Assembly: GCA_003558065.1 (NCBI GenBank)
Contig: PWMU01000014.1
Coordinates: 1 to 63,442, forward strand
Reading direction: 5' to 3'
From: Opitutia bacterium
GTDB taxonomy: Bacteria > Verrucomicrobiota > Verrucomicrobiia > Opitutales > T3Sed10-336
Length of the DNA stretch: 63,442 nucleotides
Part shown: positions 20,410-27,404 of the stretch, piece by piece
Numbering within the stretch: position 1 is the first letter of the stretch
Layout of the letters: the number at the start of each line of letters is the position of its first letter
Program-made: the position numbers and the translations under genes
Notes under the pieces: model-generated
Seen by the model: the letters and a program-made list of their open reading frames with translations, nothing else
Told to the model about the DNA's origin: nothing
The model's database searches: none

Positions 20410-22269
20410 TCAGACGGCTTCTTCCTCGTCCGCTTCTTCGTCTGCCTCCTCATCGTCGGCGGCGTCGACCTCTCCGGTCTCTTCCTCGTCCACGGTATCT
20501 TCGTCAACCGCTTCGTCGACGGTGCCTTCCGTTTCGACGCTTTCCTCTTCGAGGCTCTCGTCGCCGGTGGCTTCGCTGTCGGTGGCCTCTTCCTCGTCGG
20601 TCACCTCTTCGTCGTAACGTTCCTCCACCCTTTCAGCCTCGCTGAATTCCAGGAACTCCCGCATCTGCTTTTCCCGCAGTTCGAGACTTTCCCGGTACTG
20701 TTGATCAAACCGGTCGAGATTCTCAATCAGGTGACGGATCGCCCCGGCAGTATCAACCGTTACGGTAATCGCTCCACCGATCAACAAACGATAATGATCG
20801 TCCACAAAGTCGACGTCCATTTCGGCGTCGAACCTGTCCTTCGAGGGATAAAGGTAAACTTTACCGACCGAAGTGCGAAACTCGCGCAGGATAAGCTCGC
20901 TATCCTCGTCGGCGCGTATCTGTCGGACAAATTCCCGGGCGCCTGACACGCGATTCTCAAACGTTTCCAATGCGGCCGCCAGAGCTTCACGCTGTTCGGC
21001 GTCACCGGGAACAAGTTTAAAAGCGAGCCCCACGATATCATCACCGGTTATGATCGCTCCATTCCGCTCCAGATACCGTCCCTCATAGGGGTCGAAATAT
21101 CGCTCGGGAAGTATACGAAGCTCCAGACTTTCCACCGCCCGCCGCTGTCGCGTCGACTCCGCACCGGGCATATCCAGGTAGACGTGATACCGGTCGTTTA
21201 CCAGCTCGGTCCGCTCCCTTACCATCTCCATCCGGTAGGACTCGTCGACCTCCTCGACGTCCGCTTCCACATCCTCCTCTTCGACCTCCTCTTCGGCCCG
21301 ACCCTCCGGAACCGCCGCAGCAGCTTCCAGAACCGCCTCCTCATGTTGCGGGGCTGCCCCGATCGCTTCGCGGACAATGTCATCCCTGAAATCGGGGGCC
21401 CTCGCGAGTGCCGTCTCCACGACGGCCACCGTCCAGAAAGCTTCCTCTTCGGCAACGCGGCCCACGGAACGCCGTGTTGCAGTCCCCGCGTTGGCAGGAA
21501 ATGCTTCAATCAGCGATTCCACCAACCTCAGTTCACGCTCCAGACGTTCCGGCAACCCACTTTCAGGGTCCTCCAGGTCTTCAAGCACTTCGGCCTCATC
21601 CGGCGCCTCCTCGTCTTCCGGAGCACGGCCGGCTGCCACAAGAATCGCGTCGCGGTGATGCGGCGCAGCTCCGATCGCTTCCTCGACAATCTCATCCTCA
21701 TGTTCCGGCGAAGCCGCCAGCGCGGTTTTGACGACAGTTTGAGCCCAATAAGCCTCTTCGTCCGCCACGCGACCTATCGAGCGTCGAACCGCCATCCCCG
21801 AATTTGCAGGAAACGTCCCGATCAAGGAGTCAACGAGCCTGACTTCGCGCTGCAAACGCGCCGGAAGCTCCTCTTCCCCCCCGGCCGTCTCCCCGGATAC
21901 GTAGTACTCGGGAAAGGCTCCAGCCACCGCGGTCTCGACCGCCTCGCCTCGATCGGGAGCGGCTTTCACAACCGCATCGACAATCTCACGGACCGCTTCG
22001 GAATTCTTCTCCGGCAAGCCTTCGATACCACTCACCGCTATCGCCGCCGCCGATTCGGGAAAACTTTCCGCCAGCGATCCCACAATGGTGGCCGCGTTCT
22101 CCGGGTCGTCGGCCACCGCTTCGGTAACCGACGCAAACCGTTCCTCTCCACGCTCCTCGCTTTCCTGAAGCAACCCTTCGACGGATTCCTCCGCCCGAAT
22201 CCCGACAGCGCCTACCGCCGCTATCGCCGCGATCGCGGCCAAACACTGGATAGTTGGTATTAATTTCAT
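20410..22269 (-). CDS. Secreted acidic repeat protein, last gene of pil-type operon
   Basis: 619 residues, not a family I recognise. There is a signal peptide to about residue 26. Residues 29-120 are Ala/Glu-rich helical hairpins homologous to the N-terminal module of the secretin encoded just upstream. An 84-residue unit then occurs twice (135-218 and 239-322; for example SIGRVADEEAYW against SVGRVAEEEAFW). Residues 345-545 are a non-repeated domain ending in a coiled-coil-like segment, and the last 70 or so residues are almost only Asp, Glu, Val, Thr and Ala. It starts 12 nt after the secretin stop, so it is co-transcribed and probably works in the periplasm with the secretin. Confidence 0.8.
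   Translation of the reverse strand: MKLIPTIQCLAAIAAIAAVGAVGIRAEESVEGLLQESEERGEERFASVTEAVADDPENAATIVGSLAESFPESAAAIAVSGIEGLPEKNSEAVREIVDAVVKAAPDRGEAVETAVAGAFPEYYVSGETAGGEEELPARLQREVRLVDSLIGTFPANSGMAVRRSIGRVADEEAYWAQTVVKTALAASPEHEDEIVEEAIGAAPHHRDAILVAAGRAPEDEEAPDEAEVLEDLEDPESGLPERLERELRLVESLIEAFPANAGTATRRSVGRVAEEEAFWTVAVVETALARAPDFRDDIVREAIGAAPQHEEAVLEAAAAVPEGRAEEEVEEEDVEADVEEVDESYRMEMVRERTELVNDRYHVYLDMPGAESTRQRRAVESLELRILPERYFDPYEGRYLERNGAIITGDDIVGLAFKLVPGDAEQREALAAALETFENRVSGAREFVRQIRADEDSELILREFRTSVGKVYLYPSKDRFDAEMDVDFVDDHYRLLIGGAITVTVDTAGAIRHLIENLDRFDQQYRESLELREKQMREFLEFSEAERVEERYDEEVTDEEEATDSEATGDESLEEESVETEGTVDEAVDEDTVDEEETGEVDAADDEEADEEADEEEAV
21304..21867 (-). repeat. Two-copy 84-codon protein repeat
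   Basis: Copy 1 is 21616-21867 (residues 135-218) and copy 2 is 21304-21555 (residues 239-322) of the acidic repeat protein. They are colinear without gaps and separated by a 20-residue acidic linker. The shared core includes EAIGAAPxH and (V/I)GRVAxEEAxW. Confidence 0.85.
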
Positions 22270-22281
22270 GGTCCCCTTCTT

Positions 22282-24543
22282 TTACCTGCGTTGACGAGGA
22301 CCGGTGCGAGCGCCCCGGTTTTCCCTAACTCCCTCAGGATCATCCCGCTCCAAATCCTGCATCATCTGCCGGACCTGCGCCTGTTGTTGCTCGCTGCGCC
22401 AGCGTGACAGTTCTTCGAGATACCGGTCCTCCTCCTCCGTCCGCGGGAATTGCGACCCCTGAATATCACGATGCGAAAGGTCCATTTCCAGCATCCGGCG
22501 TTCGTCGATATAATCGGTGTAGTTATGCCGGTTCGGATCGGTGATCGTCGCCGTTATAAAGATGATCTGATCTTTCTTGAGCTGGTCGGTGGAATCGCTC
22601 CTGAACAGGCGCCCGATTACCGGAATATCCCCGAGCAAAGGCACCTTGCTTTCGGTTGTGATCGAATCCTCGTCCGCCAAACCGCTCATAGCGAGCGTTT
22701 GCCCGCTCTTAACCATCACGTTGGTCTCGACCGAGCGCTGGCGAATGGTGGGAACAATTTGTACATTCTCTCCGCCGCCCAGGACCTGTTGTCCAACGAC
22801 GTTGTTGATCTCGGGACGGGCAGCCAGGTTGATCAAGTCGCCGCCGCTGATTGTCGGCGTCACCGTCAGCATGATTCCGGGAAGCGGATCGAGAAGAATC
22901 GGCTCTTCAAAGGATTGCCGAAAGGGATCCCCCGGCTGGCCCGTACCCATAACCGTCGAGGCTCCGTCGCGGTACATGTGGTCGATCACCTGGATCTCCG
23001 CCCGTTCGGCATTCATGGTCACCACGGTCGGGCTGGCCGTCAACCGGGCGTCCGTCTCCCGCTGCAAGGCGGTCAGAACCGCATTGAATTCCGATGCCGA
23101 AAAGATCGCTTCCGAATGACGGGCGGTACCCACCGATTCCATCAGGTCACTGAAGCCCGGGTCGGCCTGTCCTCGCATGCGTTCCCACCGGTGGGTCGCC
23201 GGACCGGCTGAGACGTCCACACCGTCCTCCAGCGATTCCCATCTCACGCCGAGCTCACGGGCGTCGGTATCCGATACCTCGATGAACATGGCTTCGATCA
23301 AAACCTGCTGGGCGGGCTGGTCAAGCCGCTCGACCATGCTCTGAACTTCCCGCATCCTACCTTCCTCCGCGGTCACGATTAAAACATTGGTGCCGCTGTC
23401 CACCTGGACCTGCTGGACACCGGAAAGGTTGGAAACCAATTCCGCGATGTCCGACGCAGGCGGATACTTCACCTGAATGACCCGCGTGGACGGAGGAACC
23501 GCTTCGATCCGCTCCAGGGTTTCAACCCGAACGATGTCATCTCTATCGATGTAACCGTACCCGATCTGGGAAAGGGAGACATCGAAAACCTGTTCCCAGC
23601 CGATATTGCGCAGCCGCACCGTGGCGGTCGCCTCGGCCCCAACCGTCATAAAATCCTGCGGAATCACCACATTGATGTCGGCCTCCGAAGATACCCGAGA
23701 TATAATATCCGCAATCGCAACGTTCTCGAAGTTCACCGTCATGGTCCCGTCATCGTGCAACGTAACCTGGTCGTCCGGCACGCCCACATCGACGTAATCA
23801 TCGCGAACGACCTGTATAATCCCCTCTTCTTCGATATAAGTGTATCCCGTCGGTGACAGCACGATATCAAAGACCTGGTGCCAGGTAACATCCCTCAACT
23901 GCACCGATGCCTGCCCGGTCAACTCCTCGGGAATCACCAGGTTCAGCTCATAGAGATCCGCCACGCTGCGGAGGATGCTCCGGATGTTCGTATCCGGAAA
24001 ATCGACCGAGATCGTTTCGAGTTCTTCATCCTCGATCTCCACATACTCTTGTCTCACCGCCTCGTCGAGCTCTTCATCCACCTGCAACGGCTCCTCCATC
24101 GACTCTTCATCAGCAAGCTCGCGCAGCGCTTCGCTGGCGGCGGCGCGAATCGCTTCCTCCTGCTCCGGCGCCGCTTCCACCGCGCTCTCAACGATAGGCT
24201 GCATCGACACGGGCGCGGCCTTCACCGCTGCCAGGACGACTCCCGGAGCGCCCTCCGGATCCGCCACTCCCGACAGAATACTGCGCACGATTACAGCAGC
24301 CGATTCCGGATGTTCACGACTCAAGTCTGCGGCAAACTCCTCCGCACGTTCCGGCTCCTCGGCCACCGCGTCGCTTACATAATCATAATGAGTCGCATCG
24401 CCCGGTTCCTCGGCCAATCTCTCCAACAACGTGTCAACGGACACGGACTCAGCAGGCGGCGTTTCGTCTGCCGAAAGAGGCAGAGCCAAAATCGCGCCGG
24501 CACACACACACAGCAACCATTGCCTGGGGTTCATTAATTTCAT
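22282..24543 (-). CDS. pilQ: Secretin (PilQ/GspD family) with extra N-terminal module
   Basis: 753 residues. The signal peptide runs to about 25. Residues 33-140 are helical hairpins (HPESAAVIVRSIL, VESAVEAAPEQEEAI) absent from ordinary secretins but shared with the next gene's product. Residues 175-245 and 270-340 are two copies of a secretin/TonB N-terminal domain (WHQVFDIVLSPTGYTYI and WEQVFDVSLSQIGYGYI). An N1-type domain follows (NVLIVTAEEGRMREVQSMV), then the secretin core (QVLIEAMFIEVSD to SGLADEDSI and VPLLGDIPVIGRLFRS). It should form the outer-membrane ring for a type IV pilus or type II-like system; PilMNO context favours a pilus. No PilP-sized lipoprotein with a Cys precedes it, but a small exported protein does. 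Confidence 0.93.
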   Translation of the reverse strand: MKLMNPRQWLLCVCAGAILALPLSADETPPAESVSVDTLLERLAEEPGDATHYDYVSDAVAEEPERAEEFAADLSREHPESAAVIVRSILSGVADPEGAPGVVLAAVKAAPVSMQPIVESAVEAAPEQEEAIRAAASEALRELADEESMEEPLQVDEELDEAVRQEYVEIEDEELETISVDFPDTNIRSILRSVADLYELNLVIPEELTGQASVQLRDVTWHQVFDIVLSPTGYTYIEEEGIIQVVRDDYVDVGVPDDQVTLHDDGTMTVNFENVAIADIISRVSSEADINVVIPQDFMTVGAEATATVRLRNIGWEQVFDVSLSQIGYGYIDRDDIVRVETLERIEAVPPSTRVIQVKYPPASDIAELVSNLSGVQQVQVDSGTNVLIVTAEEGRMREVQSMVERLDQPAQQVLIEAMFIEVSDTDARELGVRWESLEDGVDVSAGPATHRWERMRGQADPGFSDLMESVGTARHSEAIFSASEFNAVLTALQRETDARLTASPTVVTMNAERAEIQVIDHMYRDGASTVMGTGQPGDPFRQSFEEPILLDPLPGIMLTVTPTISGGDLINLAARPEINNVVGQQVLGGGENVQIVPTIRQRSVETNVMVKSGQTLAMSGLADEDSITTESKVPLLGDIPVIGRLFRSDSTDQLKKDQIIFITATITDPNRHNYTDYIDERRMLEMDLSHRDIQGSQFPRTEEEDRYLEELSRWRSEQQQAQVRQMMQDLERDDPEGVRENRGARTGPRQRR

Positions 24544-24555
24544 TTTATTTATGAG

Positions 24556-24990
24556 TTAAAGGTTTCTTTCAAGTTCCTCATCGTTCAGCCGAAGAGTGAA
24601 AGAGGAGGCCGTAATCTCCACTACCAACACCTCGTAAGCACGTCCTTCGTATTCAACAACCAGATATTCCCCGGCACCAACCGGCCGGCCTTCAAGGAGC
24701 AGAAAACGCCTCCCTCGCATCGTAATCGTCCCGTCCGGCGACAACCTTTGAGCGATATCAGCCAATCGGCCCACCACGTCTTCAGTAACCTCTTCCATTC
24801 GGGGATGAAATGGATGGGCAACCCCTCCCTCTATGAGTGTTTCAAGCGAAGGCACCTCCGGTTCCACCAGCGAGCGCGCCGACGCCAAAAACTCCTCCCT
24901 GCTTTCAGGAGACGCCACCTGGGCGACAGCCCCGGCAAACGGCCCCAAAAACAACCCACACACGCAACATATATTGAAAAATTTTTTCAT
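24556..24990 (-). CDS. Small exported protein, PilP-like position
   Basis: 144 residues. It has a signal peptide to about residue 23 (ending GAVAQ) and no lipobox. The C-terminal half is beta-rich (RPVGAGEYLVVEYEGRAY, VVEITASSFTLRLNDEE), reminiscent of the small beta domain of PilP/GspC that links the inner-membrane PilNO complex to the secretin. It starts inside the pilO-like stop (4-nt ATGA overlap) and lies 12 nt before the secretin gene. Position and fold suggest a PilP analogue; sequence homology alone does not establish this. Confidence 0.7.
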   Translation of the reverse strand: MKKFFNICCVCGLFLGPFAGAVAQVASPESREEFLASARSLVEPEVPSLETLIEGGVAHPFHPRMEEVTEDVVGRLADIAQRLSPDGTITMRGRRFLLLEGRPVGAGEYLVVEYEGRAYEVLVVEITASSFTLRLNDEELERNL

Positions 24991-25547
24991 GGCCGCCCAA
25001 GAAGCTCCAATCTGATTGCCAGGCTCAAGAGCGTCGATTCCGTCTGCCGTGCCCGGATAATCTCAAAGTTTCTGATACGCACAAAATGCACTCCGTTCTC
25101 GATCGTATGTATAAAGGAAATAATGTCCCGAAATTCTCCCTCGACCGACATTTCGTATGGCACCGACACATACACTCGCTCATCTTCATTATCTCCCGCC
25201 GCCGGCACACCTCGTTGATCCAGTGATGCAATACGTACTCCGGTTTCAGACTCCAGCCGATAAAAGTATTGAAGATTGCGGGCAAGTTCCGAGGGGCGTA
25301 TCAGACGAGTGTCGACATCCTGCGTTATCGAGCGCAAAGAGTCAAGATGCCGGCTGAGGTTTGACGAATTTTTGATGTTCTCATCAATCCGCTCCCCTTC
25401 CGCGGACACACGATCAAGGTCGCGCCTCACATCCGCCAGAGTCCCTCCGCGAACAAATATCGCCGCCGCCAAACCAATTGACAGCACCGCACAGACGAGA
25501 ATTACCGGATGTTCTCTAAACTTGGCTATAAGTACGTTAAGATTCAT
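24987..25547 (-). CDS. pilO: PilO-like pilus assembly protein
   Basis: 186 residues: a short cytoplasmic start, one membrane segment (HPVILVCAVLSIGLAAAIFV, 13-32), a coiled coil to about residue 75 and a ferredoxin-like C-terminal domain (VPYEMSVEGEFRDIISFIH, FVRIRNFEIIRA) characteristic of PilO/GspM. It forms a heterodimer with PilN in the inner membrane. It lies between the pilN-like gene (18 nt spacing) and the small PilP-position gene (overlap). Confidence 0.85.
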   Translation of the reverse strand: MNLNVLIAKFREHPVILVCAVLSIGLAAAIFVRGGTLADVRRDLDRVSAEGERIDENIKNSSNLSRHLDSLRSITQDVDTRLIRPSELARNLQYFYRLESETGVRIASLDQRGVPAAGDNEDERVYVSVPYEMSVEGEFRDIISFIHTIENGVHFVRIRNFEIIRARQTESTLLSLAIRLELLGRP

Positions 25548-25565: not shown

Positions 25566-26174
25566 CTAATCCTCACTGAGGCTCAAGGCGAAACTGAATG
25601 ACAACGTATCCGCTTCCGGGTTTCGCGTAACCGACGTCACGTCCACGTCCCGCACCACGGCCGAAAAGTATTCATCCTCCCCGAACAGGGCTTCGTAACC
25701 GGAAATAATATCGGTCGCCTCTTCCGAAATCCCGAGCACCCGCCCGACAAGCGTCAACCGCCGCCGCCCATCTTCAACCCGGTGGGTTATTCTTGTCAGA
25801 ACGATCCGCTCGGGCAGTGTCCCGGCGAGTTGCCCCAACAGCTCGGAAGCCACAACCGGCGAGCGAAAAAAGGCGGCCGCCTGCTCGAACTGTTCTCGCT
25901 CGGCATCGAACTCCCGGCTGAGTTCGACGGCCTCTTCACTTTGAGGACGCCTTTCTTCTATACGGGTCTCCCATGAATCCACTTGCTCCTTGATATTGCG
26001 GAGTTCGTATTCACGGGACACAAACACAATCAAGAGCGCGCAAGTAATAACAAAAGCGCAAACATTCAGAAAGAAAGAAGTGCGCACTACCTTGACGTCA
26101 GGAAGCGCTGCCGGATTGCGGAATTCCGGATGCCAGCACAAAGGTGTTCGGGAATCTCCTTTACTTCTTTTCAT
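25566..26174 (-). CDS. pilN: PilN-like pilus assembly protein
   Basis: 202 residues: a cytoplasmic N-terminus of about 30 residues that should contact PilM, one membrane segment (FFLNVCAFVITCALLIVFV, 34-52), a coiled coil around 55-105 and a PilN/GspL-type periplasmic domain (LAGTLPERIVLTRITHRVEDG, RRLTLVGRV). Its start lies 14 nt inside the pilM-like gene's 3' end, which implies coupled translation. The conserved PilN N-terminal INLLP motif is not evident (it reads WHPEFRNPAALPD), so the assignment rests on topology, order and the periplasmic domain. Confidence 0.82.
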   Translation of the reverse strand: MKRSKGDSRTPLCWHPEFRNPAALPDVKVVRTSFFLNVCAFVITCALLIVFVSREYELRNIKEQVDSWETRIEERRPQSEEAVELSREFDAEREQFEQAAAFFRSPVVASELLGQLAGTLPERIVLTRITHRVEDGRRRLTLVGRVLGISEEATDIISGYEALFGEDEYFSAVVRDVDVTSVTRNPEADTLSFSFALSLSED

Positions 26175-27201
26175 TCTCGGGAATTTTTGCCTCGATCATT
26201 AGCCCAAAGAGCCCAAGCCAATGCGATGGGATGTTTTCCGTATTCAATTCGGAGCCCAGCAGAATACCGTTATGTTCGAGCCATTCGGGATACGTGATCA
26301 CGAACGGATCAACATTCAGTGTTTTTGCAAAGGTTTTGTTCAACCAGGAAAGCTGAAGAGGAGTTCTCGCGCAAAACACCTGCCCGATAGACAGGCCGGT
26401 CTGGACCTCGTAAAACCCGATATTGGATTGGAGTTCGCGTAGCAGCCGGTCCACCAGCCGGGGCCCCATTTCCTTGAAGTCGAATGAATCGGAATAGAAA
26501 AGGCGCTGGGCGGCAGCCTCGTCTTTGAGCCCCAGATCCCGCTGGACAACGGCTATCATTGAATGAAGGCCGTGCGGGATAACCCGTACCGAATCCACGG
26601 CTCCCCCATTGATCACAATGACCCTGGTTTCCTTCTGGCCGATTTCCAGAACCAGCGTCGGGTACTCCACCGCGGCAAACCTGTGGTAATCGACGAGTGC
26701 GCCGATAGTGGCAATGCTTCCGATCTCAAGCCGGTCGGGGAAGACCCCGTAATCGAGCAATTCCTGCTGAGCGTCACCCAACTCTGACGTCGGGCCGCCA
26801 CCAATGAAGAATTCCTTCTCCATGAGACTGCCGACATCGGCCGGAGCACCGGTACGCGGGTTCAGGACAGCGAGTGTGTAGGCATTCGGATCGATGTTGA
26901 ATTCAGCCTTTACCCTGTCCTCCAAATAACGGGGATCCCGCGCTTTCCGGGGCTCATCCATGATAATTTTACCGAGGACTCTACCGCGGGGATAGACTCC
27001 GCAACGCGCCCGAGTGTACCCACTGCTTCCGGAAGATTTACCGTTGCTCTCGATAAGTTTCTGGATTTCCTCGTTGTCGCCGGCCGGTGCCTCCTTGATT
27101 TCCTCCACAGTCATGGGATGTCCATATCCGGAAGTGCGGGCCATCAGGAAACTCACATCGGAGTGTTCGACAAAAAAGGCGCTGTGTTTGGACGCTGACA
27201 T
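26161..27201 (-). CDS. pilM: PilM-like actin-fold protein
   Basis: 346 residues from the ATG at 27201 with AAGGG upstream; the frame continues to 27396 but without homology. Actin/FtsA-fold segments are recognisable: VLEIGQKETRVIVINGG (phosphate-binding strand), PHGLHSMIAVVQRDLGL and LLRELQSNIGFYEVQTG. PilM binds the PilN N-terminus under the inner membrane. Compared with classic PilM the N-terminal half is divergent and carries a long Gly/Ser/Glu-rich loop (about residues 25-70). First gene of a five- or six-gene leftward operon. Confidence 0.82.
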   Translation of the reverse strand: MSASKHSAFFVEHSDVSFLMARTSGYGHPMTVEEIKEAPAGDNEEIQKLIESNGKSSGSSGYTRARCGVYPRGRVLGKIIMDEPRKARDPRYLEDRVKAEFNIDPNAYTLAVLNPRTGAPADVGSLMEKEFFIGGGPTSELGDAQQELLDYGVFPDRLEIGSIATIGALVDYHRFAAVEYPTLVLEIGQKETRVIVINGGAVDSVRVIPHGLHSMIAVVQRDLGLKDEAAAQRLFYSDSFDFKEMGPRLVDRLLRELQSNIGFYEVQTGLSIGQVFCARTPLQLSWLNKTFAKTLNVDPFVITYPEWLEHNGILLGSELNTENIPSHWLGLFGLMIEAKIPENEKK

Positions 27202-27404
27202 AGAAATGAACCCTTGTTTTACAAGGCATCCCCCCCTGCAAAGCAATACGTAAATGCCATAATGATCCAAGTTTACAGTTTTTTTAGAGCAAAACCTTAG
27301 GGTTGTTTCAGAAGGTCGGATGATAATCTTTTGCCCGTTTATCAAGGAGGCATTGATCAAAAAGGAGATGCAATTTCTTTCCAGCGGGTATATCATTCAA
27401 CCCT

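Follow-up and report, generated by a model that had tools for sequence, protein, structure and literature searches.

In Myxococcus, the AMIN domains of the secretin PilQ bind peptidoglycan (PMC10653833). Other secretins are served by a separate envelope protein to which they are genetically linked, namely TsaP, GspA/GspB and the pilotins, and the locus described here resembles them in this respect. We analysed a stretch of 63,442 nucleotides (the window), one contig of a 4.1-Mb draft genome, in which a secretin and its secreted neighbour share an N-terminal helical module. As far as can be judged from sequence, the shared module points to an uncharacterised accessory of the secretin pore. Our preferred reading, to which we give a probability of roughly one half, sees in the neighbour a long-standing periplasmic accessory of a PilMNO-type secretin, and in the module a borrowed domain that acts as an adaptor.

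The soda-lake GTDB family T3Sed10-336, with the genera PXDC01 and SLOW01, was named in 2026 (PMC13274419); the isolate Verruconatronum alginivorum also belongs to it. The named relatives of the window are Opitutales MAGs with the contigs PXDC01, SLTG01 and SLOW01, and from these shared names we infer that the window and the relatives' contigs belong to the genera PXDC01/SLOW01. All relatives beyond the window's genus mates are known from MAGs.

Results

The operon encodes, in order, a PilM-like protein, a PilN-like protein, PilO, a 144-aa secreted protein, the secretin and the neighbour, and the same order was found in four further genomes of the T3Sed10-336 family (G001, G003, G005 and G007). 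The secretin and neighbour genes both lie on the minus strand, with 12 bp between them. The features are as follows.

26161..27396, minus strand: PilM-like ORF that probably starts further in (NCBIfam PilM E 6.2e-5, below cut-off)
25566..26174, minus strand: PilN-like protein (operon position; weak GspL_C match, E 0.041)
24987..25547, minus strand: PilO (Pfam PilO 5.6e-6, above its cut-off)
24556..24990, minus strand: secreted protein of 144 aa, at the place of PilP/GspC, HR-like by inspection only (operon place in G001, G003, G005 and G007)
22282..24543, minus strand: secretin gene, 753 aa, fifth in the PilM-PilN-PilO-HR-secretin operon (Pfam and NCBIfam)
24118..24441, minus strand: helical module of the secretin, residues 35-142 (module HMM E 7.7e-36; AF2 helices)
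24016..24117, minus strand: acidic linker from module to N0, residues 143-176 (net charge -16 over 34 aa; pLDDT mostly <50)
23794..24012, minus strand: N0/STN domain, residues ~178-250 (Pfam STN 1.3e-10, GspD_N0 5.4e-6)
23509..23748, minus strand: second STN-like domain, residues ~266-345 (36% identical to the first STN in BLASTP, E 7e-17)
22285..22308, minus strand: secretin C-terminal peptide RTGPRQRR, the last eight residues, invariant in four species within an otherwise variable tail
20410..22269, minus strand: neighbour gene, 619 aa; product secreted and acidic, with three modules and a C-terminal domain
21907..22185, minus strand: neighbour module 1, residues 29-121 (module HMM E 9.4e-28)
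21613..21846, minus strand: neighbour module 2, residues 142-219 (HMM domain; five helices in AF2)
21310..21546, minus strand: neighbour module 3, residues 242-320 (HMM E 4.6e-7; five helices in AF2)
20605..21264, minus strand: C-terminal domain (CTD) of the neighbour, a secretin-linked family (no Pfam entry)
20413..20604, minus strand: acidic tail of the neighbour (its last 74 aa carry a net charge of -39)

The secretin also carries a Secretin_N domain (Pfam E 2.3e-11) and a C-terminal Secretin domain (PF00263, E 1.2e-35), and it scores 210 bits against NCBIfam PilQ (TIGR02515), below the curated cut-off of 284. No Pfam AMIN match was obtained at E 1, the N-terminal module being predicted as all-helical with no beta fold, and the 144-aa protein has no Pfam PilP match. 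The sequence-only reading had proposed an extra N-terminal helical module where ordinary secretins begin with AMIN or N0 domains; the module is real and shared with the neighbour, but N0 is still present behind it. The window's genome encodes three other secretins, and a module search found the module only on that of the operon. Contig CAJCBL010000112 (L101:5518-8077) holds ORFs with STN-like domains, in some of them two in tandem, followed by apparent membrane helices and no secretin domain.

Residues 35-142 of the secretin are homologous to residues 29-121 of the neighbour, with a profile-profile score of 99.9 (E 3e-18) for orthologues from 4-5 genomes with signal peptides excluded; BLASTP of the two proteins, signal peptides included, gives 34% identity over the first 130 residues (E 2e-8). 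The alignment first proposed (33-140 with 29-120) is therefore borne out with small shifts at its ends. The SV(D/E)xLL opening claimed for it is not conserved in the neighbours of the relatives, and where a single module had been claimed for the neighbour, HMM repeats and AF2 reveal three copies. Both aligned segments consist of 37-38% Ala and Glu, as would suit a chance resemblance of Ala/Glu-rich, low-complexity helices, which had been named as the result that would overturn the claim. However, 60 column-shuffled control profiles of the same composition reached 18.3 at most, the helix pattern is consistent and its pLDDT high, and the module HMM, run against 223 genomes of the order in a search of the kind proposed as a check, hit nothing beyond the T3Sed10-336 module genes and one gene in another family. 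Since so few genes are matched, Ala/Glu-rich protein at large is not picked up, and we count chance resemblance as refuted, with next to no likelihood left to it. Membership of a known secretin domain family, the second result named against the claim, did not emerge either, as the module belongs to no family in Pfam or NCBIfam, nor to one in PHROG.

The module is predicted by AF2 as an all-helical domain of ~105 residues. In the secretin it is built from ~14-residue helices broken by prolines, with ten-residue mean pLDDT mostly of 83-98, in a model that is unreliable past residue ~128 (pLDDT mostly <50). The solved folds nearest to it are helical repeat proteins, mostly designed, at a Z of 10.8 that is within the range of unrelated helical folds. 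Searches for solved relatives by sequence returned only weak matches, probably due to chance and in several cases to designed helical proteins, and in a Foldseek search of the PDB neither model found a match at E 0.001. Small helical repeats have many possible binding partners. In the neighbour, AF2 predicts three similar five-helix domains (ten-residue mean pLDDT mostly 77-93), the second and third of which are diverged copies.

Behind these modules, the CTD of the neighbour belongs to no named family in Pfam, NCBIfam or PHROG and has no solved relatives by sequence. A fold search within a large model placed it near the repeats of PUR domains (Z 7.9 over 129 residues, 9% identity), which are tandem beta-beta-beta-beta-alpha units that bind nucleic acid; there is no Pfam match to PUR, and all CTDs are acidic (pI ~5). 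We keep the resemblance as a lead. Read from the sequence, the end of the signal peptide carries no Cys and hence no lipobox as in a pilotin. No relatives of the neighbour were found on plasmids or viral contigs. The CTD occurs in 13 of the 223 genomes, spread over three Opitutales families, and in all 13 the gene directly upstream encodes a secretin (in G005 via a longer stretch). This gene order suggests that the CTD works with the secretin, and makes docking of the neighbour on the secretin plausible. The claim of an unrecognised secretin accessory holds in so far as the gene is secretin-linked and matches no described one. The accessory of G005 (L155:7094-9529) is a protein of 811 aa with repeated CTD-like segments and no helical module.

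The module is present on both secretin and neighbour only in the genera PXDC01 and SLOW01, where the secretin has one copy and the neighbour, in every species, two or three. Outside these genera it was found neither on the accessory nor on those secretins for which the N terminus is available. The accessories of G005 and G007 do without it, and it is therefore not essential to the accessory. Because CTD proteins outside PXDC01/SLOW01 lack the module, the accessory is probably older than its modules. Derivation of the neighbour from the secretin, which had been offered as an alternative to docking, is rejected: the CTD occurs in other families without the module, downstream of secretins that also lack it, and the module is found a third time, in a polysaccharide-export locus.

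In a phylogenetic tree the secretin, neighbour and stand-alone modules form one lineage each, and alternative branching orders of the three types are not rejected (p-AU values of 0.18-0.19). The appearance of the module on both proteins was probably one evolutionary event, and a single shared gain is weak evidence for contact between secretin and neighbour. The module may have spread as sequence without a function: one of the adjacent genes may have received the other's 5' end, comprising signal peptide and module, or both may have obtained it from the stand-alone gene. It would then persist in the acidic envelope of a haloalkaliphile as a neutral spacer or as a leader for secretion. The adjacency of the genes, the N-terminal place of the module on both proteins, the p-AU values and the module-free accessories of G005 and G007 are all in keeping with this. 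We nevertheless consider it rather doubtful, given that five species retain the module on the secretin, with conserved helix-breaking prolines, and that the neighbour keeps two or three copies in every species.

The third copy in the window's genome is a 166-aa secreted protein (contig C92), encoded upstream of a BBP2_2 barrel, a Poly_export/SLBB protein (Wza/EpsE-type exporter) and a Wzz/Wzc protein, adjacent genes that mark an exopolysaccharide export locus. The stand-alone gene is present in all eight T3Sed10-336 genomes examined and is followed by barrel, OPX and Wzc genes in five and by the barrel in a sixth, the contig ending in the other two. Another family of the class has more distantly related proteins with the module (~190-300 aa), and at least five of these are encoded next to a barrel. 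Four stand-alone proteins (L029:8365-8865, L036:8161-8649, L039:7085-7579 and L040:7813-8301) share a conserved terminal SPTPGxxIDASIISPS after a proline-rich linker; in L035:6703-8397 the module is fused to a further domain of ~420 aa, and in L079:787-2421 it lies behind a FecR domain.

Discussion

We propose that the neighbour is an accessory that may dock on the secretin ring through its CTD. On the secretin the module lies in front of N0, on an acidic linker, at the ring's periplasmic end, which is where the AMIN domains of PilQ bind peptidoglycan in Myxococcus. From flexible acidic linkers at this place, the modules may tie secretin and accessory to each other through module-module contacts. 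The invariant RTGPRQRR of the secretin and the acidic tail of the neighbour could provide a second contact, as a docking peptide. Alternatively, the modules may anchor secretin and accessory to one further envelope ligand, in the way that AMIN does for PilQ.

A distinct explanation gives the module a ligand in the cell wall or in exopolysaccharide. It would then be the functional counterpart of AMIN, anchoring conduits (the secretin, the EPS barrel) to wall or matrix, and secretin and accessory would not have to make contact through it. The third home of the module in an EPS export locus, the secretin's want of an AMIN match and the precedent of PilQ speak for such a role; but the module is acidic and all-helical, a repeat for which no relative that binds carbohydrate is known, and we judge this explanation unlikely. 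A further possibility, less likely than not, is that the module is a transferable helical adaptor of the outer-membrane conduits of Verrucomicrobiota, serving polysaccharide export barrels and, in the soda-lake genera, also the secretin and its new accessory. It would thereby add an outer collar to the ring at its periplasmic end.

If the accessory of our preferred reading does bind the secretin, the PilMNO-type machines of Opitutales have a new component that belongs to no named family. The module would also be one domain that links pilus and secretion secretins with exopolysaccharide exporters, which are usually studied apart. Simple profiles now suffice to search for both the module and the CTD families.

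EpsL/EpsE/EpsF export loci (BBP2_2 barrel, Poly_export, Wzz/Wzc) correspond to the loci that encode the stand-alone copy, except that the small protein with the module, encoded ahead of the barrel, belongs to no described family. Unlike TsaP, GspA/GspB and the pilotins, the neighbour has no LysM, GspB, TPR or lipobox, and its CTD falls in no Pfam or NCBIfam family. From PilQ with AMIN the window's system differs in that the extra domain of its secretin is all-helical and unrelated to AMIN, and in having no PilP or AMIN match and two STN/N0-like domains. What it shares with PilQ is the PilM-N-O-secretin operon, the N0, Secretin_N and Secretin domains, and an extra domain placed ahead of N0, at the periplasmic end.
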